From: Acidimicrobiaceae bacterium
GTDB lineage: Bacteria > Actinomycetota > Acidimicrobiia > Acidimicrobiales > UBA8592
Assembly (NCBI GenBank): GCA_002724825.1
Contig: PBPU01000034.1
Coordinates: forward strand, 26,734-58,884
Reading direction: 5' to 3'
Length of the DNA stretch: 32,151 nt
Numbering within the stretch: the first letter of the stretch is position 1; the number at the start of each line of letters is the position of its first letter. The translations under genes were made by a program, and so were the position numbers. Positions 9,106 to 17,177 of the stretch are shown one piece after another. The notes under the pieces are model-generated. The model was given only the letters and a program-made list of their open reading frames with translations, did no database searches and was not told the origin of the DNA.

Positions 9106-9207
9106 CTAGAAGAGAGTTCCCTATTTCTTTTGACTTCGGATGAAGAAGTATTTTTATGCAAGCTCCCTCTAAAATAAGAAATTGAGCTCTATAGATTGAC
9201 TGGAGAA

Positions 9208-10587
9208 ATGGCAGACAAAACGCCTTTACCTGATTTACCAAACTGGACTTGGCTTGGTGGAGATAGCGGGCTAGCGAGGCGCGTCGGCAAACCAGTTCGA
9301 AATTTTCTAAACATAGAAGCAGCTGGAGGGATATTACTCCTTATTGCAACAGCCGTTGCCCTTATTTGGGCCAATTCGCCATGGGCGGGAAGCTATGAAA
9401 ATCTTTGGAATACCCACTTTGAACTGGCAGTCGGTAGTTACCACATGGGGGGATCTGGACATCACCTCACCTTGGGCTACCTAGTGAATGATGCGTTGAT
9501 GGCTATTTTCTTCTTTGTGGTCGGTCTTGAGATCAAAAGAGAGCTGGTAACAGGACATCTAAAAGACCCAAAGGCAGCAGCTCTTCCGGTAATAGCGGCA
9601 ATAGGAGGAATGCTCTTTCCGGCACTTATTTTCTTCGCTTTCAATCCTTCAGGTGATCCCGCCTCCGGCTGGGGGATTCCAATGGCAACAGATATTGCAT
9701 TTGCGGTCGGTGTTGTTTCACTTCTAGGCGATCGGGTCGGACGTCCTCTAAAAGTATTTCTACTAAGTCTCGCCATAGTTGATGACATTGGTGCGATTTT
9801 AGTAATAGCTATTTTCTATACTTCCAGCATCTCAGTGTCTTGGTCCATAGCGGCCATAGGTATCCTTGCTGTAATCGTGATACTCAAATTCATAAAAATT
9901 TGGTACATTCCGATTTATATTCTTTTAGGCTTCGCCTTCTGGTTAGCAACATTTGAGTCCGGAATTCACGCTACAATTGCCGGTGTTATTCTCGGCCTAA
10001 TTACTCCTGCCAAACCCCAGCAATCTAAAGAAGAAGGTATTAAGGCACTTGAGTGGCTGCGCGAAAAGGGAGAAAACATTTACCCTGTAGATGTACGTAT
10101 CACCGCAATGGAACTGAACGAGTCATCTTCTTCGATAGCGGAACGAATAGGGACAGTACTTCATCCAATTTCAAGTTTTATCATTATCCCTATCTTTGCT
10201 TTAGCAAACGCTGGAGTTGATTTAGGGGGAGGAGTCTTAGGAGACGCTGCAGGAAGTGCTATTACATGGGGAGTCGCCCTCGGTCTCGTAATAGGAAAGA
10301 CAGGAGGTATTTTCTTAATGACTTGGATAGCTGTAAGACTGCCCTTTACTACCCGTCCGAAAGAACTTAATAACATGTCTCTTCTCGGCTTATCGGCTGC
10401 AGCAGGGATTGGCTTTACGGTTGCACTCTTTATCACCAATCTTGCCTATAAAGATAATTTACTTTTCGCAGATGAATCAAAGATAGGAATCCTATTTGCA
10501 TCGTTGGTAGCAGGAATAATAGGGGTCTTATTCTTACATTACGGAACAAAAAAACATAGAAATGTTAAGCAAGAAAGCTATAGATAA
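9208..10587 (+). CDS. nhaA: Na+/H+ antiporter NhaA
   Basis: FLNIEAAGGILLLIATAVALIWANSPW; LVNDALMAIFFFVVGLEIKREL; GIPMATDIAFAVGVVSLLG; LAIVDDIGAILVIAIFYT. ORF track starts at TTG 9196; ATG 9208 is the more likely start, unresolved. Confidence 0.95.
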   Translation: MADKTPLPDLPNWTWLGGDSGLARRVGKPVRNFLNIEAAGGILLLIATAVALIWANSPWAGSYENLWNTHFELAVGSYHMGGSGHHLTLGYLVNDALMAIFFFVVGLEIKRELVTGHLKDPKAAALPVIAAIGGMLFPALIFFAFNPSGDPASGWGIPMATDIAFAVGVVSLLGDRVGRPLKVFLLSLAIVDDIGAILVIAIFYTSSISVSWSIAAIGILAVIVILKFIKIWYIPIYILLGFAFWLATFESGIHATIAGVILGLITPAKPQQSKEEGIKALEWLREKGENIYPVDVRITAMELNESSSSIAERIGTVLHPISSFIIIPIFALANAGVDLGGGVLGDAAGSAITWGVALGLVIGKTGGIFLMTWIAVRLPFTTRPKELNNMSLLGLSAAAGIGFTVALFITNLAYKDNLLFADESKIGILFASLVAGIIGVLFLHYGTKKHRNVKQESYR

Positions 10588-10775: not shown

Positions 10776-13700
10776 GTGCCTAAAGCACTTGTCATAGTTG
10801 AATCACCAGCGAAAGCTAAAACAATTAAACGCTACCTTGGGTCTGATTACTCAGTTGAAGCTTCAGTTGGTCATATCAGGGACATCATCCAACCAAAAAA
10901 TGTCAAAACTGATAAACGGTACGATCTGACAATTCATGAAGATAACTCGGAACTTCATAAGTACGGTATTGATGTATCTGGAGAGAGTCCTTCAGAAAAT
11001 ATCTGGGAACCGTGGTACGTTGTCAGTGAAAATAGTAAAAAAACGATTACCCAATTACGTAAAGCGTTGAAGAGCGTTGATCTTTTATACCTTGCTACTG
11101 ATGAAGACCGTGAGGGAGAGGCAATAGCCTGGCACCTAGTTGAAGTCCTCAAACCAAAAGTTCCGTTTTACAGAATGGTTTTTCATGAAATAACAGAAAA
11201 GGCCATTGTTGGAGCCCTCGAACAAACCAGAGATATCGATATGAACCTTGTGGCCGCCCAAGAAGCGCGAAGAATCATGGATCGAATGTCAGGTTTTGGT
11301 TGGTCTGGCGTGATGAGACAAGTCATAGGAGGCGGGGCTTCTGGGGGGCCAGTTCAAAGTCCAACGACTCGACGACTAGTTGAACGTGAACGAGAACGTA
11401 TCAGGTTTATAAGCGCTGACTATTGCAGCTTATCTGCAAGTGTTCGCCACAAAAATGCAGGTGTTGTGTTCAATACAAAACTTATAGAAATTAATAACCA
11501 GAAAGTTGTTTCCGGGAAAAATGATTTCGATGAGAATGGAGAGCTTAAAAAAAGCAACGAAGTGGTCGTGCTAGATGAGAACCGTTCGAACTCGTTGAGA
11601 GAAGCATTAAAATCTGGAACTCTTTCTGTGAGTTCGATTGAGCGTTCTCCGTATCAAAGAAAACCAAAACCTCCTTTCACCACGTCTACCTTCCAGCAGG
11701 AAGTTATTAACAAGCTTGGAGGGTCAGCCAGCGCAGCCATGGGTATAGCGCAGAGCTTGTACCAAAATGGGTATATTACCTATCACCGAACGGACAGTAC
11801 GGCTTTATCTGATCAAGCTATTGAAGCGGCCCGAGCAAGTATAGAAACCGAATGCGGAATAGAATATCTACCTCGGGAAGTTCGAACATATGAGAATAAA
11901 ACATCTAGTGCCCAATTAGCGCATGAAGCGATACGCCCAGCTGGCGAAACGTTCCGACACCCTGACGAGCTCAAAGGAGACCTAAATAAAGATCAGCTTC
12001 GGGTCTACGAAATTATTTGGAAAAGAACACTCGCATCCCAAATGACAGACGAAAGGGGGGAAACAGCTCGGATGCTGCTTAGCGGGGCGGTTTCTTTCGA
12101 CGATAGTTCTGAATCCCAAACTCTGACATTTAGTGCAAGCGGCCGAGTTATTACACATCCAGGATTCCGGTACATATATGAAGAAACACCGGAAAATGAC
12201 GAAGAGGTAGAAGGTGAAGAAATACTCCCCGACCTTCCTGAAGGAGAAACCGTAACCATTGAGGGAATCGAAGTGAAGAATCACTCCACGAAACCTCCAG
12301 CAAGATTTACAGAATCATCAATTGTCAAATGGATGGAAGAAGTAGGTATCGGACGACCTTCAACCTTTTCTGCAACAATAGGGAAAATTCGCGCACGAGA
12401 ATATACCTACAAAGAAGGCCGTTCATTGGTTCCGACAGTGAAGGGAATCGTAGGAACTAATTTCCTCGAATTAGAATTTAACGAAGAAGTCCAATATCAC
12501 AATAGAGCTAACTTAGAACAAAGCCTCGATAAAATTGCTAATGGGGATAAGAACAGAGTTGAAACTTTAGACAAATGGTGGTTTGAACCAGCAATAGGCT
12601 TTAAACACAAACTTGTTGATGTGGAGGACAAGATCCAACTAGGTGAGCTACCAAAACTTCGTCATGAGATAGCCCACCAAGTTGGATTTGATCCTGAGTC
12701 GAACCAAAACATTTACGCGCGTTTTGCCAACCAGAAGCCATATGTCCAATACGACATCGACGGCGAAACTGCATCAATCCCCGAAAGTCTTCCCCCAGAC
12801 CAACTTACAGTTCCAAAGGCGAAAGAATACCTAAATGCAGCAGCGGAACCGGATCAGGTACTATGTGAGGATCCCGAAACTGGTCTTGATGTAGTTCTAA
12901 GGCAAGGAAGCTACGGATGGTACGTCTCTCTAGGGCATTTCCCCAAATGGCCTAGATCCTCTTCACCAGAAGGCGAGCTAATGCGACTCCCACACCACCT
13001 AAAACCACTAAAGGTGGCTGCTGCCTATCTTCGCTCTGCTATAGATCCTACGGATGATGAAGCTATCCTCTACCTACTCAACTCCCCCAAACGTGGAATT
13101 GGAAAAAGATCAATAGAACACTTTCAAAAAATTGCAGAAGATAACCAGTGCAGTTTACTTGAAGCTTTCCAGACAGGGAGCGTGCTTAAATCAGGAAGCA
13201 GTCAAGAATCAGCACTAGAAAAGCTAATCCAGTTGATTACGCAGTATCAGAAAAAACAGGAAAGTGAAAGACCGAGCTCCCTAATTCGTGAACTACTGCA
13301 TGATTCCGGGTACTGGGAAGAAGTTCTAGCGCTGAAGGATCCCGAATCAAAAATCAAAAATATTGAATTATTCATATCCGCATTGTCCAAATTCGATAAT
13401 TGCCAAGTTGCCGTTGATGTACTTTTTGAGAGAGAAAGACTTAAAAATACCCCAAGGCCCAAAACGGCTTCATTGATAGATGGAATGGATCCTGAAACCT
13501 TAACCAAAGAAGAAGCCCTACAGCTTCTGAGCCTCCCCAAGGTTCTAGAGCCAGATGGTGATTCGCAAATTACTCCTACAAACCCTGATCCAGAAACCGA
13601 AACATCAGAAGAAGAAATACCTGAAATTACTGTTCATAACGGACCCTACGGACCATATCTACGTTTTGGAGATGACACCAGAAGTCTTGGAGATGATGAT

Positions 13701-13979
13701 GACCCATTCACAATTACATATAGCCGTGCCCGTGAAATACTCTCACAGCCGAAACAGTTTCGCCGACGCCAATCAAAAGAAATTACATTGAAAAACGATG
13801 ACGGGAGCCCATGTACTGATCCGGTATCAGAAAAACCTATCGTCCTCAAAGAAGGACGATTTGGTCCATACGTTACCGATGGCGATACAAACGCAAGTCT
13901 TCAACTTGGCGACTCCGTCGAACAAATGAACGGTGAACGAGCGAAAGAGCTTCTAGCAGAACGTCGAGCCCAACAGTAG
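10776..13979 (+). CDS. topA: DNA topoisomerase I (type IA) with a UvrD/PcrA 2B-like insertion in the C-terminal repeats
   Basis: 1067 aa, GTG start; VIVESPAKAKTIKRYLG, TDEDREGEAIAWH (TOPRIM), GYITYHRTDST (catalytic Tyr), RFTESSIVKWMEEVGIGRPSTFSATIGKI, C-terminal repeats (YGPYLRFGDDTRSL, GRFGPYVTDG). Confidence 0.95.
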   Translation: MPKALVIVESPAKAKTIKRYLGSDYSVEASVGHIRDIIQPKNVKTDKRYDLTIHEDNSELHKYGIDVSGESPSENIWEPWYVVSENSKKTITQLRKALKSVDLLYLATDEDREGEAIAWHLVEVLKPKVPFYRMVFHEITEKAIVGALEQTRDIDMNLVAAQEARRIMDRMSGFGWSGVMRQVIGGGASGGPVQSPTTRRLVERERERIRFISADYCSLSASVRHKNAGVVFNTKLIEINNQKVVSGKNDFDENGELKKSNEVVVLDENRSNSLREALKSGTLSVSSIERSPYQRKPKPPFTTSTFQQEVINKLGGSASAAMGIAQSLYQNGYITYHRTDSTALSDQAIEAARASIETECGIEYLPREVRTYENKTSSAQLAHEAIRPAGETFRHPDELKGDLNKDQLRVYEIIWKRTLASQMTDERGETARMLLSGAVSFDDSSESQTLTFSASGRVITHPGFRYIYEETPENDEEVEGEEILPDLPEGETVTIEGIEVKNHSTKPPARFTESSIVKWMEEVGIGRPSTFSATIGKIRAREYTYKEGRSLVPTVKGIVGTNFLELEFNEEVQYHNRANLEQSLDKIANGDKNRVETLDKWWFEPAIGFKHKLVDVEDKIQLGELPKLRHEIAHQVGFDPESNQNIYARFANQKPYVQYDIDGETASIPESLPPDQLTVPKAKEYLNAAAEPDQVLCEDPETGLDVVLRQGSYGWYVSLGHFPKWPRSSSPEGELMRLPHHLKPLKVAAAYLRSAIDPTDDEAILYLLNSPKRGIGKRSIEHFQKIAEDNQCSLLEAFQTGSVLKSGSSQESALEKLIQLITQYQKKQESERPSSLIRELLHDSGYWEEVLALKDPESKIKNIELFISALSKFDNCQVAVDVLFERERLKNTPRPKTASLIDGMDPETLTKEEALQLLSLPKVLEPDGDSQITPTNPDPETETSEEEIPEITVHNGPYGPYLRFGDDTRSLGDDDDPFTITYSRAREILSQPKQFRRRQSKEITLKNDDGSPCTDPVSEKPIVLKEGRFGPYVTDGDTNASLQLGDSVEQMNGERAKELLAERRAQQ
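12987..13448 (+). other. Inserted UvrD/PcrA 2B-subdomain-like segment inside topA (approx. codons 738-891)
   Basis: LKVAAAYLRSAIDPTDDEAILYLLNSPKRGIGKRSIEHFQKIAEDNQCSLLEAF...ALEKLIQLITQY...SSLIRELLHDSGYWEEVLALKDPESKIKNIELFISALSKFD parallels UvrD-type EIKDxLAYLRxxxNPxDDxxLxRxxNxPKRGIGxxSxxxxxxxAxxxxxSLxEAL...LxxLLxxxGYxxxL...xxxENxxELxSxAxxFE. Flanks are TopA repeat (LRQGSYGWYVSLG and PRPKTASLIDGMDPETLTKEEALQLLSLPKVL). Confidence 0.8.
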
Positions 13980-14033: not shown

Positions 14034-15503
14034 TTGCTTAAGACTTCAAACTACTCTGATCGCGTGACTTCAGAACAATCTTCAACTTCTCATCATGGGG
14101 ACCTTGTTGCAGGCCATCAGAGCCTTGCTGGAAATCTTTGGGTCGAGAAAATATTTGGAAGTTTTCAATATTTCCGTTTGTGGATCGTGCAAGCAGTTGG
14201 ATCTACTGGTGATTGGCTTGGTTTTCTAGCTATCGCCGCTGCGGCCACTGAACTGGGAGGAGGAACACCTGAAACAGCTGTAGGGTTTGTCTTTTCTGTT
14301 CGGATAATTCCAGGCCTCTTCCTAGCTCCTCTTGCGGGTGTGCTTGTAGATCGCTGGGACCGTAAGAAAGTTATGATTTACTGTGACCTCGCTCGAGTGC
14401 TTATTCTACTTCTTCTTCCATTTGCCTCAGCTGTATGGCATTTAGTGCTGGCATCCCTTGCTCTAGAAATCTTTACCCTGTTGTGGATTCCAGCAAAAGA
14501 CTCTGTAGTTCCAAGTATCGTCCCAAAAGAAAGCCTGACGACCGTAAATTCCCTCCAAATGGCAGCAACCTACGGAACTGTTCCAATAGCTGCAGCCATC
14601 TTTATCTTTCTCGGCCGCTTGGCCGACAAAATTTCATCATGGCCCGGAGCTTCGTCGTTTAATGCTGATCAAATTGGATTAGGTTTTTTTGCTGATTCAC
14701 TCACATTTCTATTTTCAGCATTGATGATTCTGTTTATTGCTATACCTCAACGCTCGATCTCTGAAACTTCACCCAAACAGAAACCGCGCCTTGATTTATC
14801 ATCAACAATTAAGGAATTGCGCGAAGGTTGGGAATTTATCTTCGTGAACCCAGTCGTCCGAGCTGTTTGTGCCGCTTTGGGTGCCGGTTTAATTGGTGGA
14901 GGTATGTTGATCCCCCTAGGTCCAATTTTCGCAAAGGATGTCTTGGGAGAGAATCCAGCTGATGGTATGTCCGTCCTTCAGACAGCATTAGGTATAGGTG
15001 TTGCAGTTGGGGTTGCATCTCTTGCAATGTCAAAAAATAAAGTTGGACAATTGAAGCTATTTGTCTTTTCAGTCTTTGCTGCAGGTGCCAGTCTTCTCGT
15101 TGCTGCATCGATGTCTGGTTTATGGCCTGCGGCAGCTCTTATAGGTTTATTAGGAGTCTTTGCTGGGGCAATTTATGTCTTGGGATTCACCCTTCTGCAG
15201 ATCAGTGTTGCTGAGGAACTTCGCGGAAGAATTTTTTCAGCCGTCTACACCATTGTCAGACTATCTCTAATCATTGCAATGTCTATAGGTCCATTCGTCG
15301 CCGCTACCCTCAACGGACTTTCTGAAGAAATCTTCGATAAGCGGCTCAGCATTTTTGGTTGGACCGTATTTATTCCAGGTGTTCGAATTACATTATGGAT
15401 GGCAGCCCTGATCATTCTTGGAGCTGGTTTCCTTGCCTTCACTTCGGTGAGAAATTTTCTAGAGGATGATCTAGCCTTAGATAGGGAGGAAAAAACTAAG
15501 TGA
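14034..15503 (+). CDS. MFS transporter
   Basis: 489 aa; multiple TM segments and PGLFLAPLAGVLVDRWDRKKVMIYCDLAR (MFS motif A). Confidence 0.88.
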   Translation: MLKTSNYSDRVTSEQSSTSHHGDLVAGHQSLAGNLWVEKIFGSFQYFRLWIVQAVGSTGDWLGFLAIAAAATELGGGTPETAVGFVFSVRIIPGLFLAPLAGVLVDRWDRKKVMIYCDLARVLILLLLPFASAVWHLVLASLALEIFTLLWIPAKDSVVPSIVPKESLTTVNSLQMAATYGTVPIAAAIFIFLGRLADKISSWPGASSFNADQIGLGFFADSLTFLFSALMILFIAIPQRSISETSPKQKPRLDLSSTIKELREGWEFIFVNPVVRAVCAALGAGLIGGGMLIPLGPIFAKDVLGENPADGMSVLQTALGIGVAVGVASLAMSKNKVGQLKLFVFSVFAAGASLLVAASMSGLWPAAALIGLLGVFAGAIYVLGFTLLQISVAEELRGRIFSAVYTIVRLSLIIAMSIGPFVAATLNGLSEEIFDKRLSIFGWTVFIPGVRITLWMAALIILGAGFLAFTSVRNFLEDDLALDREEKTK

Positions 15504-16120
15504 CTGGATTACTTATAGCTTTTGAAGGTGGAGATGCCAGTGGGAAAACCACTCAAGCGCGCCGTATATCCGACCTTATCGGAGCTTTTTTTACTCGCGA
15601 ACCTGGAGGGACGGAAGTTGGAGAGTCACTTCGCGACCTTCTTCTTGATGCTCAAACCCCACTTGCATTTCGAACGGAAGCGCTTCTTATGGCCGCATCA
15701 AGAGCCCAGTTAGTCGAGGAAGTCATACGACCTAATCTTGAAAACGGAATACATGTAGTCTCAGATCGATTCTTAGCTTCATCTCTCGTCTACCAAGGAT
15801 ACGCAACGAGTCTTCCTGTAAACGATGTGAGAGAATTGTCGATCTTTGCGACAAATGGGCTTCTCCCAGACTTAACAGTACTCATAGACGTTCCTGTGGA
15901 GTTATCTATGCAACGAAGAACAGATATGCCTGACAGGTTTGAAAGTGAGACAACTGAATTTCACGAAAAAGTTCGTAGAGGTTATTTGGCATTAGCTGAA
16001 AGCGATCTTGAAAAGTGGGTAGTTATTGATGGCTCAGGTTCTCTAGAGCAGGTTAGCAGCCTTGTTGACCAAGCAATAACCGGGCACTTAGGTCTTTCCT
16101 TAACTAGTTCGAGTTCGTGA
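15500..16120 (+). CDS. tmk: Thymidylate kinase
   Basis: FEGGDASGKTTQARRI, FTREPGGTEVGESLRDLLLD, VVSDRFLASSLVYQGY. Overlaps the MFS stop. Confidence 0.95.
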   Translation: MTGLLIAFEGGDASGKTTQARRISDLIGAFFTREPGGTEVGESLRDLLLDAQTPLAFRTEALLMAASRAQLVEEVIRPNLENGIHVVSDRFLASSLVYQGYATSLPVNDVRELSIFATNGLLPDLTVLIDVPVELSMQRRTDMPDRFESETTEFHEKVRRGYLALAESDLEKWVVIDGSGSLEQVSSLVDQAITGHLGLSLTSSSS

Positions 16121-16121
16121 T

Positions 16122-17177
16122 ATGGGAATGCAATCTTCAGTATTTGATCGTGTGGTTGAACAAGAGAAAGTTATCCAGCAACTAAAAATTTCTGCTGCAA
16201 ATCCTCTTCATGCCTATTTTTTTGTAGGTCCGAGGGGTTCGTGCCGATGGGAAGCAGCGAAGGGGTTTGCCGCTCTAATTCTAAGTGATGGCTTAGGTCG
16301 TGCTGAAGCTGAAAGAGTAAAACGGCTGATACTTCGTGGAGAACATCCAGACTTAGTTCGGGTTTCACCACAAGGAAACCAGTATCGAGACGAAGAAGTT
16401 CAGATAGTTATAAATCAAGCGAGTCGAACCCCAGTAGAGAGCCCTAAAAAGATTATTGTTGCTGACAGATTTCATACTGCCAATGCCACTGCTGTGGGTC
16501 GTCTTCTAAAAACTCTTGAAGAGCCCGCACCCTCTACGATCATCGTACTTATGGGAGAAAATATTCCTGAGGAGCAAATTACTATTTCCTCGCGATGTAT
16601 GACATTAGAGTTTCATCCAATTTCTGCATCTGGAATCTGTAATTGGCTTGTTGAACAAAATTTTGAGGCCGAAACAGCCAAAACGGTGGCTCGTGCGTCA
16701 CGAGGGGACCTTCATAGGGCTTCTGACCTGATCAATGACCAAAAAATCACTTCTCGATTAAACATGTGGGAATCCATTCCTGAACGGTTAAATAAAGATG
16801 GGCATGTGATCGCTGAGATCGTTGAAGAAATTCGAAATAGTCTTGATGAAGCTCAGACCGTAATTGATAAGAGACATGTTCAGGAAATCGAAGAATTAAC
16901 AGAGCGCGAAGAGGCTATAGGTGCTAGGGGGTCCGGAAGAAAAGAACTTGAGTCTAATCACAAAAGAGAGATTCGGCGTTTACGAATCGATGAACTTCGC
17001 TTCGGTTTTGCCACCCTAGCAAATGTTCTTCGGGACAAGCTTCATCAAGATCCTTCTGAGTCACTCGCGCGTTCAATTGAGCATATCCGAAGAGCAAATG
17101 GAGCCCTTAACAGAAATCCTAATGAAAGCCTTCTGCTTCAAGGACTTCTCGTTTCACTTTCCGATGAAGAAACATAA
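16122..17177 (+). CDS. holB: DNA polymerase III delta-prime subunit
   Basis: FFVGPRGSCRWEAAKGFAA (degenerate P-loop), GEHPDLVRV, ATAVGRLLKTLEEPAPSTIIVLMGE, ISSRCMTLEFHP; follows tmk. Confidence 0.9.
   Translation: MGMQSSVFDRVVEQEKVIQQLKISAANPLHAYFFVGPRGSCRWEAAKGFAALILSDGLGRAEAERVKRLILRGEHPDLVRVSPQGNQYRDEEVQIVINQASRTPVESPKKIIVADRFHTANATAVGRLLKTLEEPAPSTIIVLMGENIPEEQITISSRCMTLEFHPISASGICNWLVEQNFEAETAKTVARASRGDLHRASDLINDQKITSRLNMWESIPERLNKDGHVIAEIVEEIRNSLDEAQTVIDKRHVQEIEELTEREEAIGARGSGRKELESNHKREIRRLRIDELRFGFATLANVLRDKLHQDPSESLARSIEHIRRANGALNRNPNESLLLQGLLVSLSDEET

Follow-up and report, generated by a model that had tools for sequence, protein, structure and literature searches.

A UvrD/PcrA-type 2B domain inserted in a C-terminal repeat of DNA topoisomerase I from Acidimicrobiales

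The topoisomerases I of Mycobacterium smegmatis and M. tuberculosis and the TopA of Streptomyces have the same catalytic part and the same kind of repeat C-terminal domain (CTD) as the enzyme described here. Actinobacterial TopAs characteristically end in lysine repeats, which in Streptomyces stabilise the TopA-DNA complex and make the enzyme processive (PMC7398561). In M. smegmatis TopoI, the D6 repeat carries a positively charged, disordered insertion of about 20 residues between strands beta3 and beta4 (PMC7192597; PMC10969213). Chlamydial TopA-SWIB and other TopAs with variable C-termini combine TopA with an extra C-terminal module (PMC12445093, PMC9369019), and in reverse gyrase and RecQ/Sgs1-Topo III a type IA topoisomerase is joined to helicase-derived parts. 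The 2B domain of the helicases UvrD, PcrA and Rep contains the GIG motif, which is the duplex-binding motif of UvrD; in Deinococcus UvrD, substitution of the first glycine by threonine impairs binding, while a threonine mutant at the second glycine still bound duplex (PMC3797037).

The window, that is, the whole stretch of 32,151 nucleotides analysed, comes from an Acidimicrobiaceae bacterium and contains a topA gene whose parts are collected in Table 1. By its sequence the product is a bacterial type IA topoisomerase with a repeat CTD of the actinobacterial type: the ORF matches TIGR01051 topA_bact at 2.4e-185 (618 bits, cut-off 456), Pfam finds Toprim, Topoisom_bac and five stretches of Topo_C_Rpt (PF13368), and M. 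smegmatis TopoI (6pcm) aligns at 5e-174. The motifs VIVESP (aa 6), ATDEDREGE (aa 107) and YITYHRTDS (aa 333) are present, and we take them, from the residue roles in E. coli TopA, to supply the catalytic Glu of Toprim, the DxDxE and the active-site Tyr. When the genome was searched with the TopA core, the window's topA was the sole match, so it is apparently the housekeeping enzyme.

Table 1. Parts of the topA gene, in window coordinates
Feature	Position	Strand	Basis
topA, DNA topoisomerase I with inserted UvrD-type 2B domain	10776..13979	+	single unbroken ORF, GTG start, 1067 aa
Catalytic part: Toprim (aa 5-139) and Topoisom_bac (aa 154-598)	10788..12569	+	Pfam, catalytic motifs
Interrupted Topo_C_Rpt repeat, first half (D6-like), beta2-beta3, signature LRQGSYGWYVSLG	12897..12938	+	non-carrier alignments, 6pcm (to residue 733), AF2 strand in both models
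Conserved linker FPKWPRSSSPEGELMRLPHHL, unlike TopA and unlike UvrD	12939..13001	+	insert alignment, UvrD comparison
Predicted UvrD/PcrA-type 2B domain (aa 743-889)	13002..13442	+	phmmer, NCBIfam, UvrD comparison, AF2, Foldseek
GIG motif PKRGIGK (aa 771-777)	13086..13106	+	carrier alignment; duplex-contact role from PMC3797037
Interrupted repeat, second half (KTASLIDGMDPETLTKEEALQLLSLPK): beta4 and helix	13461..13541	+	6pcm residues 759 onward, alignment, AF2
Remaining Topo_C_Rpt repeats, ending AERRAQQ without Lys-rich tail	13638..13976	+	Pfam, tail comparison

Other TopAs lack the roughly 174 residues that separate the repeat signature LRQGSYGWYVSLG from KTASLIDGM. A first-pass annotation of this DNA had described a non-TopA segment splitting the CTD repeats within one unbroken topA frame, and this is what the ORF contains, with Topo_C_Rpt sequence on both flanks. 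The boundaries given then, 12987-13448, are good: the 2B core is at ~13002-13442, and the non-TopA segment, which includes a conserved linker of 21 aa in front of the core, starts slightly earlier, at ~12939, and ends at ~13460. The alignment to 6pcm runs over aa 4-718, breaks at chain residue 733 and comes back at residue 759 (aa 891). The insertion site is thus the beta3-beta4 loop of the Topo_C_Rpt repeat that matches M. smegmatis TopoI D6, the loops being equated by alignment, and, together with the insertion published for D6, the gap indicates that the 2B domain occupies a loop already variable in this class of TopA. In helicases, 2B is itself an insertion within domain 2A, with its ends near each other, and is for that reason suited to insertion into a loop.

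Sequence searches and structure prediction agree on the identity of the insert that the first-pass annotation had proposed from motif order. With phmmer it matches PcrA (2pjr, 3.4e-15), UvrD (2is1, 5e-8) and Rep (1uaa, 2e-7); the NCBIfam models for pcrA (TIGR01073, 1.8e-19), uvrD (9e-16) and rep (9e-16) match it over the 2B stretch only, and in a Pfam scan of the segment by itself UvrD_C (1.3e-6) exceeds its cut-off. In an AF2 model of aa 680-960, built from a 14-row alignment (mean pLDDT 78, 2B blocks mostly 85-94), the 2B stretch is all-helical and located between the beta-strands of a single repeat. The Foldseek comparison of this model with UvrD/PcrA/Rep, a check recommended at the outset, gave a probability of 1.00, with an rmsd of ~2.3-3 Å over ~153 columns in the best rows. 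The model of full-length TopA was poor (mean pLDDT 63, pTM 0.35) and was used for the order of secondary structure only; for the same scores, the placement of 2B against the TopA core that it offers was dropped. The phmmer and NCBIfam matches span only helicase residues ~383-525, so the motor is absent from the insert: it contains neither domains 1A and 2A nor motifs V/VI, it is cut at the helicase 2A/2B boundaries, and TopA sequence restarts directly after it. The segment, aa ~743-889, is thus by sequence and model a complete UvrD/PcrA 2B domain, and, as had been claimed, a domain-precise graft, its identity as a helicase being excluded. It shares with the 2B of UvrD, PcrA and Rep the fold, the helix order, the GIG motif and SGY, but it is detached from the motor, has no ATPase, is less acidic and has Val in place of an invariant Asp. 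Compared with the actinobacterial TopoI, the D6 loop of the window's TopA holds a folded 147-aa 2B domain plus linker, and the Lys tail is missing.

The insert is present, at the identical site, in 40 TopAs, which belong to three families of a single order (the window's family, f55 and f60). First searches had placed it in a single genus, a limit overturned by the order-wide search from which f55 and f60 were recognised as carriers. In the window's genus, 17/17 TopAs reaching the C-terminus have it, the TopA of G006 being cut at a contig end and the genome of G012 giving no TopA match. None of the remaining TopAs compared contains a 2B insert; these non-carriers include five f60 genomes of genus g62 as well as G019 and G020, from the remaining two genera of the window's family. 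The insert is 169-174 residues long in 39/40 carriers and 185 in G312, against 7-16 residues at this position in the aligned non-carriers, and it is intact in every carrier with an assembled C-terminus, streamlined genomes included. Among the matches listed from sampled searches of class and phylum, none ran across insert and TopA linker beyond f1 and f55. Spread by phage was also considered and set aside, as a scan of viral contigs gave one partial match and, as far as tested, no TopA insert. The related genome records are mostly marine Acidimicrobiales MAGs, a circumstance in favour of an assembly or binning artefact, and a chimeric contig absent from all relatives had been named at first as what would overturn the finding. 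Forty independent assemblies from three families that share one insertion site rule out such a chimera, and one carrier, AG-410-G14 (isolate, L062), bears no MAG label and is taken as a single-cell genome; the probability left to an artefact is negligible.

Some other topA genes deserve mention. The topA of G016 (L035/L063) has one in-frame TAA stop 5′ of the insert, which may reflect a pseudogene, a frameshift or an assembly error, and a small f7 genome has a second TopA-like gene (G282:C4:1428-2969, L204). The TopAs of family f66 (L199-L202; genomes of 1.0-1.1 Mb) have a different C-terminus with two paired cysteines that recall a zinc ribbon, in which neither a Topo_C_Rpt signature nor a Lys tail was seen.

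Residues P771, R773, G774, G845, Y846 and F873 are invariant in 40/40 inserts, and G776 is Gly in 37/40; three inserts have Ser at the second GIG glycine. The motif is altered in part of genus g141, with Ser for the second Gly, KRDGLG in G312 and GVS in G296. The residue following GIG is Asp in 18/26 UvrDs and Lys in 29/40 inserts, and the median net charge of the 2B core is −9 in UvrD versus −2 in the inserts, a comparison of phylogenetically related sequences for which no P value was used. Judged by dN/dS, 0.06-0.27 where computable (14 close pairs), the insert is under purifying selection; these ratios range from values like those elsewhere in TopA to roughly two to three times as high. That it is a near-neutral passenger, tolerated in a loop and only rarely deleted, would fit with the variable length of that loop and with a divergence faster than that of the catalytic core in several comparisons, as in the G173-G197 pair (38% identity in the insert vs 73% in the core). 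Nevertheless, the low dN/dS throughout, the nearly constant length, the conservation of GIG, SGY and F873 in three families and the integrity of the insert in streamlined genomes make a mere passenger very unlikely.

Several features support a single insertion of 2B into TopA. The inserts share the linker F/P-x-K/x-x-P..SS..G.L...P, found in neither TopA nor UvrD, their boundaries are identical among carriers, and the position equivalent to Asp747 is Asp in 26/26 UvrDs and Val in 39/40 inserts, a change expected for a 2B domain separated from its helicase. In a tree with 26 UvrD 2B domains, a single branch separates all 40 inserts from the helicase sequences (support 98/89). With regard to the donor, the loop before the last helix is short in the inserts and in the UvrD 2Bs of the order and longer in the UvrDs of other groups, which makes a native UvrD the likely source; at their 3′ end, the order's UvrD 2Bs also follow the profile of the inserts for longer. 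A foreign donor such as a Firmicutes PcrA, the top PDB match, was rejected on these two features. The most likely origin is therefore a duplication of 2B from the order's own UvrD/PcrA, although the 2B tree leaves the exact donor undecided.

For the later history, several long branches make the deep order unsure. A tree of the TopA N-terminal part joins the f60 carrier genera to g62, a genus of non-carriers (99). Their inserts, in contrast, group with the f55 genus g88 (99/98), and in the CTD repeats the two groups of f60 do not come together. This conflict could reflect segmental transfer or a loss in g62. The g62 non-carriers (L144, L149-L153) have the repeat PYVSVGR, near the PYVSLGR of the carriers, where other non-carriers have PYVQLGE, which may hint at an ancestral insert that was lost. 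The TopA of G150 (L112, f60 genus g107) groups with the window's genus and outside f60, perhaps through long-branch attraction, and that of G312 (L136, f55 genus g141) forms a long branch with divergent flanks of the insert. Once in place, the insert was inherited and probably also passed between lineages.

The C-terminal tail also differs between carriers and non-carriers. The medians are 8.5 aa with 2 K+R in carriers and 56 aa with 22 K+R in non-carriers, and in f60 the tails have 5 aa with the insert vs 56-62 aa without it; as only 2-3 independent contrasts are contained in these numbers, the association of insert and tail is unable to reach significance. The tail of the window's TopA, seven residues with 2 K+R, does not count as Lys-rich. 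The f55 carriers have short basic tails (7-11 K+R), and G150 has the insert together with a 33-residue basic tail. That most carriers are without the Lys-rich tail is suggestive of insert and tail being counterparts, but a strict replacement of one by the other was discarded in view of the few contrasts and of G150. Small-genome non-carriers in f7 and f23 keep the basic tail, so a small genome is not in itself enough to account for losing it, and plain streamlining was rejected as the cause, even though f66, with its different CTD, is also tailless. A further arrangement is seen in genome G068 (L189, family f49), whose TopA has neither 2B nor Lys tail and contains instead a Lys/Arg-rich insertion of ~60 residues in the D6 beta3-beta4 loop, possibly a third form of one auxiliary DNA-binding element.

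The reduced tails of the carriers and the basic D6 insertion of G068 make a role as a DNA tether acting on processivity the first candidate, and we give an even chance to 2B being a duplex-DNA tether that replaces or modulates the Lys-rich tail. In the model, the Topo_C_Rpt repeats would hold the single strand of an underwound region, while the adjacent 2B would use its GIG helix-loop-helix to grip the duplex alongside. This grip would retain TopA on the DNA between cycles of strand passage, at or near the single-strand/double-strand junction, so that 2B would act as a tether or as a junction sensor and would take over, or add control to, the job done by the Lys tail in other actinobacterial TopAs. 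Duplex binding by the inserted copy, the effect on processivity and the replacement of the tail are all things that we infer, and the presence of both features in G150, the f55 tails, the altered GIGs of g141 and the near-neutral charge of the insert count against them. The duplex-binding or regulatory module suggested in the first-pass annotation is consistent with purifying selection and with the retention of GIG in nearly all carriers; for the coupling to repair or fork processing suggested along with it, anatomy and gene neighbourhood give no specific pointer.

The main reservation about the tether is that in UvrD 2B is now regarded as autoinhibitory when on duplex and as the dimer interface when the enzyme is active (PMC13238157), so the same conserved surface could pair with UvrD. 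The insert would then be a docking site for the cell's UvrD/PcrA, relieving its autoinhibition through 2B-2B pairing. Helicases of the UvrD family become active when two 2B domains pair, in an arrangement that brings GIG close to the interface, or when a partner such as MutL binds 2B (PMC13238157); moreover, most carrier genomes have UvrD genes with their own 2B, so that a partner is available. However, identity between the inserts and UvrD 2Bs reaches only 21-46% and the surface helices have diverged strongly, which leaves little sign of a conserved hetero-interface; nor were topA and uvrD seen to lie together. Docking of UvrD is unlikely, and with it a TopA-UvrD complex that would couple unwinding to the passage of a single strand and be functionally comparable to RecQ-Topo III or reverse gyrase.

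The partner might also be another protein, such as RNA polymerase, a MutL-like protein, Ku or a replication protein, to which 2B would target TopA. The domain is a known site of protein contacts (MutL, possibly RepD; PMC13238157), and RNA polymerase is already a partner of the TopA CTD in E. coli and M. smegmatis (PMC10969213). We regard this as somewhat less likely still, since conservation outside the GIG and SGY core suggests no partner and neither does the gene context, with an NhaA-type Na+/H+ antiporter upstream of topA (window 9196-10587) and an MFS protein, thymidylate kinase (tmk) and DNA polymerase III delta′ (holB) downstream (window 14034-17177).

A TopA-2B fusion was not found in the open-access papers searched, and a survey of type IA C-terminal motifs makes no mention of UvrD or of a helicase (PMC9369019). 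The architecture is thus an apparently undescribed one for a core enzyme. In chlamydial TopA, SWIB is a terminal domain, whereas here a helicase accessory domain is located within a repeat; reverse gyrase and RecQ/Sgs1-Topo III employ an ATP-driven SF2 motor, whereas here a non-catalytic SF1A accessory domain is used alone. It adds a C-terminal solution missing from that survey (PMC9369019), placed at the loop that mycobacteria and G068 use for basic insertions and found in lineages that are mostly without the usual processivity tail. 2B is the debated regulatory part of the UvrD family, regarded either as a helper that grips duplex or as an inhibitor, and a 2B with its GIG kept in a motorless enzyme constitutes a natural test of 2B acting alone. 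Its retention in TopA suggests a new way for the topoisomerase to hold DNA or to cooperate with a helicase.
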